From assembly GCA_009844405.1 (NCBI GenBank), contig VYBO01000045.1:1-39807 (forward strand): 39,807 nt of DNA, given 5' to 3'. Below the pieces are notes generated by a model. It saw nothing but the letters and a program-made list of their open reading frames with translations. It was not told where the DNA came from and did no database searches. The first letter of the stretch is position 1; each line of letters opens with the position of its first letter. This document shows positions 1,628 through 10,265 of the stretch, piece by piece. The position numbers and the translations under genes are program-made. The DNA comes from Acidimicrobiaceae bacterium. Its GTDB lineage: Bacteria; Actinomycetota; Acidimicrobiia; Acidimicrobiales; Aldehydirespiratoraceae.

Positions 1628-1669
1628 GTTCCCGCTCTTGTTCGCTGCGCTCACGGGCCGCTCGGGCCC
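1628..1669 (+). repeat. Interspersed repeat family, copy A (5' half)
   Basis: Carries the family core TTCCCGCTCTTGTTCGCTGC followed by GCTCACGGGCCGCTCGGGCC. It overlaps the 3' end of the arsC-like gene: the last codons (Gly-Pro-Ser-Gly-Pro) and the TGA stop are read from the repeat, so its insertion probably replaced the original C-terminus or stop. Confidence 0.8.
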
Positions 1670-2037
1670 AGGAATTCAGCCAGCCGATCCTTGGCCTTCA
1701 TGTCACCGAGGGGCCGTCCGATGATGGCACGGTCGCCCCGCACCAGCACCGGGCGCTGCAAGAGCCTCGGATACTGGAGCAGCACGTCCACCACCGCGTC
1801 GGGGTTGCCGACGTAGTCGTCGGCGTCCAGCCCCAGCTTCGAGAACTGCGAGTCCTTGCGGACCAGGTTCTCCACCGGATCCTCCAGCCGGTCGACGATG
1901 CCCTGGAGCGTGTCGCGGTCGGGACGATCGGACATGTAGAGAACAACGTCGATGTCGGCTCCGGCATCCGTGGCGACCGCCACGGCATTCTTGGAGGAGT
2001 TTCAATGCTTGTTGTGATAGATGGTGGTGTCGGCCAT
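1651..2037 (-). CDS. ArsC-family (arsenate reductase-like) selenoprotein, in-frame UGA at the catalytic Cys position
   Basis: Read from ATG 2037 the frame gives MADTTIYHNKH, then TGA (2004-2002), then NSSKNAVAV and 116 open codons after the TGA in all. With Sec at the TGA the product is 128 residues and U12 falls exactly where the catalytic Cys12 of R773-type ArsC lies (YHN-x2-C). Three arginines matching the ArsC catalytic set are present at R60, R95 (LLQRPVLV) and R108 (IIGRP). A ribosome site (AGAGG, 8 nt spacing) precedes ATG 2037, which lies 12 nt after the acyl-CoA ligase stop. UGA is an ordinary stop in neighbouring genes, so this is not code reassignment. A SECIS-like hairpin follows the UGA. 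A gene caller would start at GTG 1983 and lose the whole active site. Expected role: thiol/selenol-dependent oxyanion reduction or a related Grx-linked redox reaction; arsenate as substrate is unproven. The alternative is a nonsense-mutated pseudogene. Confidence 0.82.
1968..1985 (-). promoter_or_regulatory. Bacterial SECIS-like stem-loop directing Sec insertion
   Basis: Transcribed from the minus strand, CCGTGGC-GGTC-GCCACGG forms a perfect 7-bp stem with a GGUC tetraloop. The stem starts 16 nt and the loop 23 nt after the UGA at 2004-2002. The published bacterial SECIS model asks for a short upper stem, a small apical loop with a G among its first two bases, and a loop about 16-37 nt downstream of the UGA; all three hold. 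A lower CUCC/GGAG pairing is also possible. It lies inside the coding region, as bacterial SECIS elements do. Confidence 0.75.
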
Positions 2038-2049
2038 GGGCGGTGCCTC

Positions 2050-3675
2050 TCAATCCTCTTCCTGTCGGGCTACGTAGACCTCTCGCCTCTCCAAGAACAC
2101 TGGCCGCCTGGTCTCGTAGACCTCCCGCAGCTTGTGCTTGAGAATCTTGAGGGTGGCATTGCGGGGCAGGGGGCCGGGGTGGATCTCGAGCTGCTCGGGA
2201 ACCTTCTGGCGGGCCAGGCCGGCTGCCAGGCAGGCCTCGACCATCTCCTCGAAGGTCAGATCGTCCGAGCCGGGCGCGGTCTCGACCACCGCGCAGACCC
2301 TCTCCCCTCGCGTGCGGTCCGTCAGCCCGATCACCGCGACCGCCCCCACCTTGTCGTGGGCGCACAGAACGTCCTCGATCTCCTTGGCGGAGATGTTCTC
2401 GCCCTTGCGGATGATGATGTCCTTCACCCGTCCGGTCAGCGTCAGGTGCCCGTCGGGGCCCAGCACGCCCAGATCGCCGGTTCGGAAGCGGCCGCGGGCG
2501 TCGAAGGCCCTTCGGTCGAGGGCGGGGTCGGTATAGCCCGAGAACAGCATCGGGCCGCTCACCCTCACCTCGCCCTGGACGCCGGTGGGGGCGCGAGCCT
2601 CCCCGCCGTCGGCGGCCATGGCCACGATGGACACGTCGCAGCCGTGTACCGGGCGGCCGTCGGTGTACGCCAGATGGTGGTCGCTGTCACGCGGAGATCC
2701 CTGCGAGATCATCGGGCACTCGGTCATGCCGTACCCGTGGGCCACGGGCACCCCCATCTGCTCCTTCACCCGGAAGTAGATCTCGGGCGGCTTGGGAGCG
2801 CCCCCGCCCGAAAGGACCCGCAGAGTGGGCATGGCCGGGCGGCCGGTCGACTCGCGAGACTTGCGGTCCTCCTCGAGGAACATCTGGTAGAAGGCCGTCG
2901 AGCCGCCGGCCATGGTCACACCGTGACGGGCGTAGGTCAAGACCGCCGCGGCCGGATCGAACCGCTCGACGAGGACGGCGCCGAATCCGGCCGCCAGCAT
3001 CGCCACCATGTAGTCGGGTCCGCCGATATGGGCATACGGGAAGGCGATAGAACCCACGTCGTCGCCGCTCATGTCGAGCGCCCGGGCCAGCCCGACTCCG
3101 CCGGCGATCAACGACGCGTCGGTGTGCTTCACGCCTTTGGGATCAGAGGTGGTTCCCGAGGTGTAGTACAGCCAGCGCACGGTGCCGCCGCCATCGGATC
3201 CCGGCACCGGCGGCAGAGTGGCCGGATCGCCTTCGGGGAGGGAGTCGTAGCCGGCGAGGGTCCGAGCCTCGTGGGCGAGCCCCGCGATGACCTCGCTAGC
3301 CATGCCGCCGTAGTCGAAGCCGTTCCAGACGCCCGGATGCACGACCATCTCGGCTCTCGTCTGCCGGATGCAGAACCCGACCTCACGCTTGCGGTAGATG
3401 TGGATGATCGGGTTCTGCACCGCGCCCATACGGCTGAGGGCGAAGCTCAGCAGCACGGTCTCGATTCGGGTGGGCAGCACCCAGGTGACCGGCGTGCCCT
3501 CGGTGACGCCCATGGCCAGCAGCCCCGCGGCCACACGCTCGGCCTGGTCCCTGAACTCCGCGAAGGTCAGCGAGCGTCCCGCCTCGTCGACAAGCATCAT
3601 CGTGTCGGGTGTGGCTGCCACCCGTCTGTTGAGCAGCTCCCAGAAGGTCCGGGCGTCGTAGATCGGCTCGGTCAT
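2050..3675 (-). CDS. Acyl-CoA ligase (AMP-forming, FadD-like)
   Basis: A 541-residue member of the ANL superfamily that activates a carboxylic acid through an acyl-adenylate to its CoA thioester. Visible motifs in order: the P-loop-like YYTSGTTSDPKGVKH, the adenylate-binding YGMTEC, the hinge region RTGDLGVLGPDG, then LTGRVKDIIIRKGENISAKEIE and a C-terminal PRNATLKILKHKLRE carrying the catalytic lysine region. The best match is the medium-chain or cyclohexanecarboxylate-CoA ligase group. I start at ATG 3675 (MTEPIYDARTFWELL); the open frame continues to 3849, but that extension is Arg/Ala-rich and comes from a duplicated non-coding segment. First gene of the run leading to the selenoprotein, 12 nt away. 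A possible response-regulator operator lies about 245-285 bp upstream. Confidence 0.9.
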   Translation of the reverse strand: MTEPIYDARTFWELLNRRVAATPDTMMLVDEAGRSLTFAEFRDQAERVAAGLLAMGVTEGTPVTWVLPTRIETVLLSFALSRMGAVQNPIIHIYRKREVGFCIRQTRAEMVVHPGVWNGFDYGGMASEVIAGLAHEARTLAGYDSLPEGDPATLPPVPGSDGGGTVRWLYYTSGTTSDPKGVKHTDASLIAGGVGLARALDMSGDDVGSIAFPYAHIGGPDYMVAMLAAGFGAVLVERFDPAAAVLTYARHGVTMAGGSTAFYQMFLEEDRKSRESTGRPAMPTLRVLSGGGAPKPPEIYFRVKEQMGVPVAHGYGMTECPMISQGSPRDSDHHLAYTDGRPVHGCDVSIVAMAADGGEARAPTGVQGEVRVSGPMLFSGYTDPALDRRAFDARGRFRTGDLGVLGPDGHLTLTGRVKDIIIRKGENISAKEIEDVLCAHDKVGAVAVIGLTDRTRGERVCAVVETAPGSDDLTFEEMVEACLAAGLARQKVPEQLEIHPGPLPRNATLKILKHKLREVYETRRPVFLERREVYVARQEED

Positions 3676-3727
3676 GCAGGTCGCTCCGATAGCTAGAACA
3701 GGGATGGAGCGTAACGCGCGGCGGAGA

Positions 3728-3845
3728 CCTCCAGGCGAGACGCGCCGGAGCCCGCCAGCGCCATGCCGGCAGGCACGGTCACACCCCAGCGGAGCCCTCC
3801 AGGCGAGACGCGCCGGAGCCCGCCAGCGCCATGCCGGCGGGCTCC
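3728..3845. repeat. 43-bp direct repeat with hairpin upstream of the acyl-CoA ligase
   Basis: The same 43 bases (CCTCCAGGCGAGACGCGCCG...) occur at 3728-3770 and 3796-3838 with 25 bp between; six bases before each copy also match apart from one. The second copy runs into a perfect 10-bp inverted repeat (GGAGCCCGCC at 3815-3824, GGCGGGCTCC at 3836-3845). It sits in the 5' leader of the ligase gene. Function unknown. Confidence 0.8.
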
Positions 3846-3919
3846 GCACGGTCCCTGGAGGGGGGAATGTGGATCCGGTTCTGGCCGATCCTGTCGTTCA
3901 GACCCGGGTCCTATCGACT

Positions 3920-7048: not shown

Positions 7049-7546
7049 CTACCCGTCCGGGTCGGCGTCGGCGGGGAGGATGCGCAGGTGCCGGCCGCTC
7101 ACGGATCGCACTACCCGGAAGTGGCGCTCGTCCAGTGTCCCGATGGTGTCGGTGCCGTACCGATCTGCCAGCACTACCAACGAAGCGTCGGTCAGGCCCA
7201 GCTGTCGAGTTGGGGTCCGTGCCGGTTCTTGGCGACCAGCCAGCACTACCAACGAAGCGTCGGTCAGGCCCAGCGGCAGGTCCCGGTAGCGCTCGACGAC
7301 GGTACGGGCCCTCGCCATGTCGTCAAGGCCGAAGGATGCCAGCTCGTAGGCGCCTGAGGACAACTCTGCGAGCAGTGTCAGTTCGGCGTCAACACCGGCG
7401 ATCCGCGCGGTCAGGTAGTCCAACTCGGCGAGCACCAGAGGCGACAGCACCAGCGGCCGAACGGTGCGGAGGACCTGTGCGCACTCGGCGTGCATCCGCT
7501 GATCGGGCACGAAGGCAGCCAGCAGCAGGCTGGTGTCGACGATCAA
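7049..7546 (-). CDS. vapC: VapC-like PIN-domain toxin with an internal 24-residue insertion
   Basis: A PIN-domain ribonuclease toxin, which normally cleaves RNA using three or four acidic residues and Mg2+. The first acidic motif is IVDTS at the N-terminus, the second LAELDYL near residue 42, the third GLTDASLVVLA. The third motif is present twice, separated by GRQEPARTPTRQ, because the gene carries a 36-bp duplication around a 36-bp foreign segment (net in-frame gain of 72 bp). Removing one unit gives a normal PIN order of LGLTDASLVVLADRYGTDTI then TLDERHF. The toxin starts at TTG 7546 overlapping the antitoxin stop (TTGA). Whether the enlarged protein is still toxic is unknown. Confidence 0.85.
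   Translation of the reverse strand: MIVDTSLLLAAFVPDQRMHAECAQVLRTVRPLVLSPLVLAELDYLTARIAGVDAELTLLAELSSGAYELASFGLDDMARARTVVERYRDLPLGLTDASLVVLAGRQEPARTPTRQLGLTDASLVVLADRYGTDTIGTLDERHFRVVRSVSGRHLRILPADADPDG
7167..7274. repeat. Repeat-spacer-repeat unit in vapC (36-36-36 bp)
   Basis: Two identical 36-bp copies (7167-7202 and 7239-7274, starting GCCAGCACTACCAACGAAGC) flank a 36-bp spacer (7203-7238) that resembles neither flank. The repeat is native vapC sequence encoding the third active-site motif. Confidence 0.95.
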
Positions 7547-7770
7547 GTCCCGAAACTCAGGTCGGCCAGGAGTTCGTCTACTCGCTCGGCCGCCGTCAGA
7601 TCGCCCCAGCCCTCAGGGAACAGGGGGACAGTGGGGGCCACCTCCCGCCGGCTGAGAGCCTCTTCGAGGGCATCGCGCACGATGGAAGCCTCGGTTCGGC
7701 GATCCTGGCGTGCGGCCTGCTCCAGCCGCCGCTTCAGGTCGTCGGGAAGATAGACCGTCGTCTGCTTCAC
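7543..7770 (-). CDS. vapB: Ribbon-helix-helix antitoxin (VapB-like)
   Basis: A 75-residue antitoxin beginning at GTG 7770 with KQTTVYLPDDLKRRLEQAA, the beta-strand plus helix pattern of CopG/Arc DNA-binding antitoxins; the C-terminal half (PLFPEGWGDLTAAERVDELL) would wrap the toxin. It overlaps the vapC start by 4 nt, giving translational coupling. A TACAAT -10 ends 7 nt before the GTG, so the mRNA is probably leaderless. The longer open frame up to 7887 runs through the promoter and is not used. Confidence 0.85.
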   Translation of the reverse strand: MKQTTVYLPDDLKRRLEQAARQDRRTEASIVRDALEEALSRREVAPTVPLFPEGWGDLTAAERVDELLADLSFGT

Positions 7771-7802
7771 GCAATGTATTGTACCATGTATTGCACTAGT
7801 GC
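7771..7802 (-). promoter_or_regulatory. vapBC promoter and probable autoregulatory operator
   Basis: The minus-strand -10 TACAAT lies at 7783-7778. On the plus strand it is flanked by two ATGTATTG direct repeats and by the perfect palindrome GCACTAGTGC (7793-7802), a suitable site for RHH-antitoxin binding. Confidence 0.55.
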
Positions 7803-7953
7803 CGACTGGCATTAGAGCGAGCGCGGATTGATCGGCGGCCGATCGCGTCGCAGGGTGGTCATTTCCGCTCCTGTTCGCTTCGCTCACGGGCCGCTCGGGC
7901 CACGGCCCCGCCCCGTATGGGCCGGGTCGCGCGTCTATCCGCGGGGCCTCTTA
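7801..7953 (+). repeat. Interspersed repeat family, copy B (near full length)
   Basis: About 150 bp, almost identical to copy C at 38143-38296, including the leading segment GAGCGAGCGCGGATTGATCG, the core CCGCTCCTGTTCGCTTCGCT and the tail CTATCCGCGGGGCCTCTTA. It fills the gap between vapBC and the imuA promoter and ends three bases before the LexA box. Confidence 0.9.
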
Positions 7954-7955
7954 GA

Positions 7956-7976
7956 CGAACATATGTATTGTATACT
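7956..7976 (+). promoter_or_regulatory. LexA (SOS) box and -10 of imuA
   Basis: CGAACATATGTATT at 7956-7969 matches 12 of 14 positions of the mycobacterial SOS box CGAACATATGTTCG. TATACT at 7971-7976 follows and ends 6 nt before ATG 7983, so imuA is probably leaderless and repressed by LexA. Confidence 0.7.
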
Positions 7977-7982
7977 GGCAGA

Positions 7983-8741
7983 ATGACGAGTCCAAGGCCA
8001 TCATCTGCACAGCTGGCGGCAGTACGGTCGGCAGAGGTCGGCACGCTCGCCGGAGGAGCCCATGAGCGGCGGCTTCCCGTGGAGGAGGCGCTGGCGCCGC
8101 TGCTGCCTGAGGGCAGTATCCGGCGGGGAACCGCCGTCGCTGTCAGCGGCCACGGAGCGATGACGCTGGCGGTGGCGCTGACAGCTGAGGCCTCCCGGCG
8201 AGGCAGCTGGGTGGCCGCGATCGGGATGGCCGATCTGGGCGTGGCCGCCCTGGCCGAGAGGGGCGTCGACCTGGAGCGCTGGGCACTGATTGACCTGCCG
8301 GGGGCGACTAGGAGCAGGAGTCTGATGGCAGATGCGGAAGGGGCGGTGGTGGACGGCTTCGATCTCGTGATGCTGGGATCCGCGGCACGGGTAGGAGGGG
8401 CGACGGCGCGGCGGCTGCTGGCCCGGATGCGCGAGCACGGCGCCTCGCTGGTCTGCGCTATCGGCGGCGCTTCGACAGACATCGTGGCCGGCCTGCAGCC
8501 GGAAGTCCGATTGATGATCACCCAGACGCGGTGGACGGGTATCGACAACGGTCACGGGCGGCTGCTGGCCCGCCAGGCCGAAGTGACCATCGGAGGCCGG
8601 GGCGCGGCGTCCCGACCCCGCCGGATGCCTGTGTGGCTGCCCTCTGAGGACGGCCGGGTGGCCTGCGCGGAACTCGCCCGGACCTCCGCGTCCACTCTCG
8701 ACCTCGGCCTACAAGACCTCAGGGAACGCCGAGCGGGCTAG
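7983..8741 (+). CDS. imuA: ImuA, RecA-like accessory protein of the SOS mutasome
   Basis: A 252-residue RecA-fold relative. The N-terminus resembles the family pattern RRLPVEEALAPLLPEGSIRRGTAV; a degenerate nucleotide-binding region (GHGAMTLAVALTAEA) replaces a true Walker A. GSWVAAIGMADLGVAALAERGVDLERWALID is characteristic of ImuA/ImuA'. It acts with ImuB and DnaE2 in damage-induced translesion synthesis. I chose ATG 7983 over an earlier in-frame start at 7917 because the latter lies in the repeat and upstream of the LexA box and -10. imuB follows after 21 nt. Confidence 0.85.
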   Translation: MTSPRPSSAQLAAVRSAEVGTLAGGAHERRLPVEEALAPLLPEGSIRRGTAVAVSGHGAMTLAVALTAEASRRGSWVAAIGMADLGVAALAERGVDLERWALIDLPGATRSRSLMADAEGAVVDGFDLVMLGSAARVGGATARRLLARMREHGASLVCAIGGASTDIVAGLQPEVRLMITQTRWTGIDNGHGRLLARQAEVTIGGRGAASRPRRMPVWLPSEDGRVACAELARTSASTLDLGLQDLRERRAG

Positions 8742-8762
8742 CCCCGGCCCGGCAACGTATCG

Positions 8763-10265
8763 ATGGCACGCGAACCCCCGCTCCCCCAACCCCAGGCACC
8801 GCCCGAACGGATGATGGCCGTGCGCCTCGGCGCCTCCCACGCTGACGACTGGGAGCCGGTGGCCGCAGCACTGGAGCAGTTCACTCCTGAGGCCGAGGCG
8901 CTGCGGCCCGGATTGCATGCTTTCGGGGCGAGAGGCCCATCGCGCTATTTCGGCGGCGAGCGGGCTCTGGCCGAGCTCGTCGCCAAGGCGGTCGCCGGCG
9001 CGATGCCGTCAGCATCGAGAGCCGGAGTAGGAGTGGCCGACGGCCTCTTCGCGGCCGGCCTTGCCGCCAAGGCGGCTTCTGCCTCCACTGATGTCCTAGT
9101 GGTCCCGCCCCAGCAGAGCCAACCGTTCCTGGTCGATCTGCCCCTGATCTCTCTGCACGATCCGGTCTCGCCGCTGCACGGCGACGAGGACGGCGCCGAG
9201 GCGCTGCTCGACGTGCTGTGGCGGCTGGGGATCCGGACGCTGGGTGATCTGGCCGCGCTGAGCGAGGCCGATGTGCTGGGACGCTTCGGCTGGACGGGGC
9301 TGCTGGCTCACCGTCTGGCCTGCGGGCTCGACGACCGCCCGCTACAAACCGAGGCCGCCGGGGAAGATGCGGGGGCCGAGGCCGAGATCGATCCGCCTGC
9401 CGACCGGATCGAGACGGTGGCGTTCATGGCCCGAGCGCTGGCCGACACCATGATGGCCCGGCTGGACCGCGACGGCCTGGACTGCATGAGCGTCAACATC
9501 GAGGCCCATTCCGACAGCGGCCATGCCAGTCACCGCCGCTGGCGCCACGAATTCCGCTTCAACGCGCCAGCTGTGGTCGACCGGGTTCGCTGGCAGCTGG
9601 AGGGCTGGTACCGGTCTCCCGAGCGCCCGGCAGGACCGATCACGCTCATCCGGATCAAGCCCTGTGCGGTGGCTCCCGCAAACGGCCGCCAACTGGGGAT
9701 GTGGGGCGCGAGGAGCGAGGCCGATGAGCGGGCGGCCAAGGCGCTGGCCCGCGTGCAGGGGCTGCTGGGCGCCGAGGCGGTGACCGTGCCCCACCTGGCT
9801 GGCGGGCGCCGTCCAGCCGATACCGGCCGCCGCGTGCCGCTGCACGCCGCCGGGGACGCCGACCGTGGCCAAGACTCGTCAGCGACCGGCCCACGCAACG
9901 GCAAGAAGAAAAAGAAGACCAAAACCAAAGTAGTGGACGCTCCTTGGGCGGGGCGGCTGCCGGCGCCGTCGCCCGCGGTGGTGCCACCGCAACCTGAGCC
10001 TGTTGTGGTAACCGATTGTGAGGGCGCGCTAGTCACCGTCGGCGGAAGAGGCGAGGCAAGTGCGCCGCCACAGCGGTTCACGGACTCTGCGGGACGCAGT
10101 CAGGCGGTGACTGCCTGGGCCGGTCCGTGGCCGCTGGACGAGCGTTGGTGGCGTCCGTCTGCTCGCCGCCGCCAGGCCCGTTTCCAGCTAGTCCTCAACG
10201 ATGGCTCGGCCCATCTATGCGTGCTGGAGTCCGGCCGCTGGTGGCGCGAGGCCACCTACGACTAA
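8763..10265 (+). CDS. imuB: ImuB, non-catalytic Y-family polymerase homologue, N-terminally short
   Basis: A 500-residue mutasome hub. LRPGLHAFGARGPSRYFGGE, the helix-hairpin-helix-like LLDVLWRLGIRTLGDLAALSEADV, RLACGLDDRPL and the C-terminal WAGPWPLDERWW...RWWREATYD are all ImuB hallmarks. A basic linker (GKKKKKTKTK, about residue 379) precedes the C-terminal protein-interaction region. The protein begins at what is normally about residue 65-75: the palm segment that usually opens ImuB (VLVVWCPDWPVTAA and CSAAARAAGVRRG in typical members) is absent and cannot be found in the 21 bp before the start. ImuB lacks polymerase activity anyway, so it may still scaffold DnaE2. GTG/ATG alternatives upstream are blocked by the imuA stop. 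Confidence 0.87.
   Translation: MAREPPLPQPQAPPERMMAVRLGASHADDWEPVAAALEQFTPEAEALRPGLHAFGARGPSRYFGGERALAELVAKAVAGAMPSASRAGVGVADGLFAAGLAAKAASASTDVLVVPPQQSQPFLVDLPLISLHDPVSPLHGDEDGAEALLDVLWRLGIRTLGDLAALSEADVLGRFGWTGLLAHRLACGLDDRPLQTEAAGEDAGAEAEIDPPADRIETVAFMARALADTMMARLDRDGLDCMSVNIEAHSDSGHASHRRWRHEFRFNAPAVVDRVRWQLEGWYRSPERPAGPITLIRIKPCAVAPANGRQLGMWGARSEADERAAKALARVQGLLGAEAVTVPHLAGGRRPADTGRRVPLHAAGDADRGQDSSATGPRNGKKKKKTKTKVVDAPWAGRLPAPSPAVVPPQPEPVVVTDCEGALVTVGGRGEASAPPQRFTDSAGRSQAVTAWAGPWPLDERWWRPSARRRQARFQLVLNDGSAHLCVLESGRWWREATYD

Follow-up and report, generated by a model that had tools for sequence, protein, structure and literature searches.

A predicted ArsC-family selenoprotein of Acidimicrobiia with a conserved hairpin downstream of its in-frame UGA

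Arsenate reductases with a predicted selenocysteine (Sec) were listed in two marine metagenomic surveys of 2005 and 2008, which reported 14 arsenate reductase selenoproteins with a UxxS motif (COG1393) from the Sargasso Sea (PMC1088965) and 77 with a UxxS motif from the Global Ocean Sampling (GOS) data (PMC2398784), and Sec-ArsC is also listed in reviews of 2022 and 2026 (PMC9312934, PMC13188914). In all of these survey and review papers Sec-ArsC stands as a prediction, and none of them cites enzymology for it. The original prediction for the locus described here was correct in recalling that ArsC-like selenoproteins appear in metagenomic surveys. In a literature search that covered the main texts of papers available without subscription, no report was found that deals with selenoproteins together with Acidimicrobiia or with one named genus.

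The window, which is the whole stretch of 39,807 nucleotides that was analysed, is contig 46 of a 3.35-Mb Acidimicrobiia metagenome-assembled genome (MAG) that is 95% complete. Positions 1651–2037 on its minus strand hold a predicted ArsC-family selenoprotein gene, which runs from ATG 2037 to a TGA stop and encodes 128 residues including Sec12, as delineated by reading of the DNA, translation with TGA as U, a Pfam match, and alignment. The sequence GAGAGG (2046–2051, minus strand), read as the ribosome binding site, is located 8 nt upstream of the ATG, and the translation begins M-A-D-T-T-I-Y-H-N-K-H-U-N-S-S-K-N-A-V. The frame contains a single internal TGA (2002–2004, minus strand), which is codon 12 and is followed by 116 sense codons before the TGA stop at 1651. 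A 110-aa ORF with a GTG start at 1983 is the mechanical ORF call over the C-terminal part of the gene. The original prediction had described the frame from ATG 2037 with its ribosome site, the single TGA at the ArsC Cys12 codon with 116 further codons, and an automatic annotation that would start at GTG 1983 and hide the active site, and all three descriptions hold. Automatic calls of this kind divide the gene and leave its active site out of view, and the true gene is shown here across the class, largely from MAGs.

Our results favor a model in which the UGA at codon 12 would be decoded as Sec by SelB and Sec-tRNA-Sec, directed by a hairpin located 16 nt downstream, and in which Sec12 would take over the role of the catalytic Cys12 of ArsC in a protein that retains the three arsenate-binding arginines. 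Sec12 would most likely attack arsenate or a related oxyanion and form a seleno-adduct, which would then be resolved by an external thiol or redox partner. Judged from the sequence comparisons described below, codon 12 would almost certainly direct Sec insertion, and very probably this is a functional gene for an ArsC-family selenoprotein that would act as a Sec12 reductase in the manner of this model. The core of the original prediction, an ArsC-family selenoprotein, is in this way strongly supported by the decoding machinery and by the comparison of homologues. The sequences themselves display the reading frame, the equivalence of UGA and Cys, the Sec machinery, and a conserved RNA element, and from these we deduce Sec insertion and the reductase chemistry.

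The product scores 49 bits against the Pfam ArsC family (PF03960), above the curated cut-off of 24, and matches E. coli ArsC structures with an E value of 3e-14; with Cys put in the place of Sec, it scores 77.4 bits against TIGR00014, below the cut-off of 106.05. In the alignment with plasmid ArsC, the UGA codon stands opposite Cys12, and His8, Ser15, Arg60, Arg95, and Arg108 are identical, in agreement with the ArsC similarity, including these three arginines, that had been predicted. The residues of a glutaredoxin-dependent arsenate reductase are found with Sec for Cys12 and with Arg60, Arg95, and Arg108 as the counterparts of Arg60, Arg94, and Arg107, and U12-N-S-S15 is the UxxS motif of the Sec-ArsC proteins in the surveys (COG1393/pfam03960). 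Sec12 is the sole selenol of the predicted product, which lacks Cys at any other position. Because the oxyanion pocket is intact and there is a single selenol, we infer an ArsC-type reaction in which Sec12 would attack and an outside reductant would complete the cycle.

The gene is the sole arsC of its genome and is not part of an ars operon. Profile searches of this 95% complete genome, which covered glutaredoxin (PF00462), the actinobacterial mycoredoxin, and the arsenite pumps Acr3 and ArsB, gave no match to any of the four; hence neither a glutaredoxin partner nor an arsenite exporter of these kinds was found. Together with the location outside an ars operon and the TIGR00014 score below the cut-off, this speaks against a plain role in arsenic resistance. 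Arsenate as the main physiological substrate is a tentative assignment that we place somewhat below even chances. Alternatively, the protein may be a selenoprotein other than an arsenate reductase, namely a Sec-dependent reductase of thiols/disulfides or of other oxyanions that is tied to the adjacent acyl-CoA ligase, and thus to thioester/disulfide metabolism, or to the adjacent ferredoxin pair, and the original prediction had likewise inferred a Sec-dependent oxyanion or disulfide reductase. We consider this alternative a serious possibility that falls short of being probable: the missing glutaredoxin, Acr3, and ArsB speak for it, as does the position of the acyl-CoA ligase directly upstream of arsC in many genera and lineages, whereas the retained ArsC motif with all three arginines of the arsenate pocket speaks against it, as do the lack of a neighboring ligase in many of the other UGA homologues and the restriction of the ferredoxin reductase close to arsC to the same genus and one other locus (L091). 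A broader proposal appears rather unlikely to us: in this clade, Sec-ArsC would no longer serve arsenic detoxification but would use its selenol to reduce another substrate, with a link to acyl-CoA activation in part of its range and with a reductant other than glutaredoxin. The missing partners put in question the label of arsenate reductase that the Sec-ArsC family has carried since 2005.

The neighbors on which the alternative substrates depend are all encoded on the minus strand. The acyl-CoA ligase ORF (2050–3849), assigned from the ORF list and a family search, is located directly upstream, probably has its true start further in, and has its stop codon 12 nt upstream of the arsC ATG. A small ferredoxin of 64 aa (1344–1538), which was assigned by eye from its sequence and gave no hit in NCBIfam, follows 112 nt downstream of arsC, and a FAD-dependent ferredoxin reductase similar to HcaD/AndAa (117–1319) was assigned by family search. 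The ligase position is not shared by all lineages, and clustering of the neighborhoods gave no partner that is conserved across all Sec forms; the neighborhood is a lead and not a function. Elsewhere in the window, two minus-strand ORFs (7049–7546 and 7543–7887) likely form a VapBC-type toxin–antitoxin pair, judged by eye from a PIN-like protein and its ribbon-helix-helix-like partner, and a short sequence is duplicated within the PIN-like ORF near its C-terminus, LGLTDASLVVLAGRQ...LGLTDASLVVLADRY. Two adjoining ORFs on the plus strand (7917–10265) resemble by eye an ImuA-ImuB-like mutagenesis cassette with a Y-family polymerase-like protein.

The SECIS-like hairpin, CCGUGGC-GGUC-GCCACGG (1968–1985, minus strand), is the perfect 7-bp stem with a GGUC loop 16 nt after the UGA that had been predicted, exactly as stated. 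The hairpin taken alone could be a by-product of the AVAVAT codons in which it lies. Codon-usage-weighted synonymous recodings of these residues yield a 7-bp stem in 12.3% of cases and a stem with a GGUC loop in 1.2%. Because 12.3% of the recodings make the stem and the 61-nt stretch folds with a z-score of only −0.99, the hairpin in one sequence is weak evidence, and the strong evidence for a SECIS element is comparative. Among conserved degenerate codons, in a test set that was not conditioned on the hairpin (an earlier codon listing came from a set conditioned on GGUC), synonymous entropy is 0–0.5 bits at the Ala and Val codons within the hairpin and 0.64–1.86 bits elsewhere (Mann–Whitney p 9e-4). 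In 11 sequences, hand-picked to represent the hairpin variants, 97% of cells are paired and five cells carry double-sided changes; the compensatory exchanges include replacement of G-C by U-A or C-G. The covariation score is higher than in any of the 500 shuffles or any slid control. All seven stem pairs are present in 39 of 54 distinct Sec sequences and in none of 26 Cys sequences, and the GGUC loop is present in 42 of the 54. In five loci from other families (L054, L056, L113, L114, and L116), an alternative hairpin lies 17 nt after the UGA, and its loop is of the CGUGC or CGUGA type. A search of the window with Rfam gave no match, and a SECIS covariance model run over the same genome scored 66.5 bits at arsC and 17.8 bits at the next hit, so that only arsC is clear and no list of other selenoproteins was obtained. 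The GGUC loop presumably resembles the loop of E. coli fdhF. A stem-loop located 3′ of the UGA, with a G in a small apical loop and conserved as RNA, is what we find here, and the Sargasso Sea study gives a small G-containing apical loop directly downstream of the UGA as the common feature of bacterial SECIS elements (PMC1088965).

In a search of 61 genomes, the gene was found in 14 of 15 other genomes of the same genus and in most of the family. Each of these genes contained an internal TGA, which direct translation placed at codon 12 in every genus or family match that was read. The same holds for all 39 named loci in the genome contigs, mostly from Acidimicrobiia MAGs and three from genomes labeled Verrucomicrobiales, and the protein after the UGA is conserved across the TGA homologues. 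No scattered nonsense mutations or frameshifts of the kind that would have spoken against the original prediction were seen in the relatives; instead, the identical lone TGA recurs at codon 12. Alignment of the homologues, which had been proposed as a check, showed TGA in 62 non-redundant sequences and, in the same column, Cys codons in 26 more distant ones (24 TGC and 2 TGT). At least seven changes between Sec and Cys are needed on the tree, of which five are forced by well-supported branches, although this tree is built from about 125 columns, leaves many forks unresolved, and does not give the direction of change; Sec and Cys have therefore been exchanged several times. Among the genomes tested, SelB scored over the cut-off for 17 of 17 TGA loci and for 8 of 20 Cys loci (Fisher p 7e-5); after correction for phylogeny, three independent pairs remain, too few for significance, and no pair opposes the association. 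One genus contains both states, with TGA and SelB in G109 and Cys and no SelB over the cut-off in G078, and the clade supplies such close Sec and Cys forms for testing why selenium has been kept.

Three further groups of sequences were observed. Two genomes that also hold the main Sec-ArsC, G022 and G029, carry a second, diverged ArsC paralogue (L064 and L065, respectively) in which the same codon is TGA (YYNAN-U-SKAR and YHNQN-U-SKAR) and which has a GGUC-loop hairpin of its own. L129, L133, L134, and L135, from other families of the class, form a Sec-ArsC group whose motif is HNPG/FNPG-U-GQAR/GQSR/GTAK; most of them have no Ser at +3, and the GGUC hairpin is absent from the group. The Sec-ArsC sequences of L104, L105, and L106, from the MAGs labeled Verrucomicrobiales, fall inside the Acidimicrobiia tree, a placement that points to horizontal transfer or to misbinning of contigs.

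The original prediction had also called for a search for selA, selB, selC, and selD, and the source genome contains counterparts of all four. A tRNA-Sec with a UCA anticodon (66.9 bits) was found with ARAGORN and Rfam; a candidate for a second one, L010, was rejected as a tRNA-Ser. SelB (572 aa, 284 bits, over the cut-off) is encoded directly after a SelA-like ORF, which was assigned by eye from the sequence next to selB rather than by family search, and SelD scores 362 bits. The selD gene of this genome (L067, about 1501–2415; G000:C3) itself has an in-frame TGA, in GAG-U-ACK, and is a predicted selenoprotein gene in which a GATCGCC-CCC-GGCGATC inverted repeat follows the TGA instead of the GGUC hairpin. 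Given this full machinery, it is highly improbable that the UGA in arsC is an ordinary stop, either in a pseudogene or in a gene whose sole product is a truncated protein that starts at GTG 1983: TGA does serve as a normal stop in the adjacent genes and the 110-aa ORF exists, but the lone TGA occupies the catalytic codon in all 62 non-redundant genes, whose remaining protein sequence is conserved, relatives have Cys in its place, and the product from GTG 1983 would be without the active site. Equally remote is a reading of the UGA as Trp, Gly, or Cys. The inserted residue is not visible in the sequence alone, but several observations argue for Sec: homologues have Cys at this position, the genome encodes tRNA-Sec, SelA, SelB, and SelD, the hairpin is of bacterial SECIS type, and TGA is the normal terminator of arsC and its neighbors.

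How, then, does this protein compare with known systems? It shares with the glutaredoxin-dependent ArsC of E. coli R773 (PDB 1i9d and others) the HN..C/U..S site and the equivalents of Arg60, Arg94, and Arg107, and differs from it in having Sec12 for Cys12, in scoring below the TIGR00014 cut-off, and in its setting outside an ars operon, in a genome where no arsenite pump (Acr3/ArsB) or glutaredoxin was found. The selenoproteins of the Deltaproteobacteria Desulfotalea and Desulfuromonas (PMC1794560) are likewise ArsC-related Sec proteins, but they were described as ArsC-like or distant homologues, unlike the ArsC described here, and the ArsC-like UxxC form (PMC9312934) has a second Cys in its motif whereas the present protein has none. 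Closest are the Sec-ArsC proteins of the marine surveys, which belong to the same family and have Sec at the catalytic position, the UxxS motif (U-N-S-S here), and a SECIS element after the UGA with a G in a small apical loop; compared by description, they may include members of the present clade. Those proteins are entries in metagenomic lists, whereas the present gene is placed in whole genomes of one actinobacterial class, together with the decoding machinery, an acyl-CoA ligase as neighbor, and a GGUC hairpin that is conserved across the clade. Thus Sec-ArsC is a kind of selenoprotein that was already known, and what is added is a whole actinobacterial clade with its host and RNA signal, repeated switching between Sec and Cys, and a functional puzzle.
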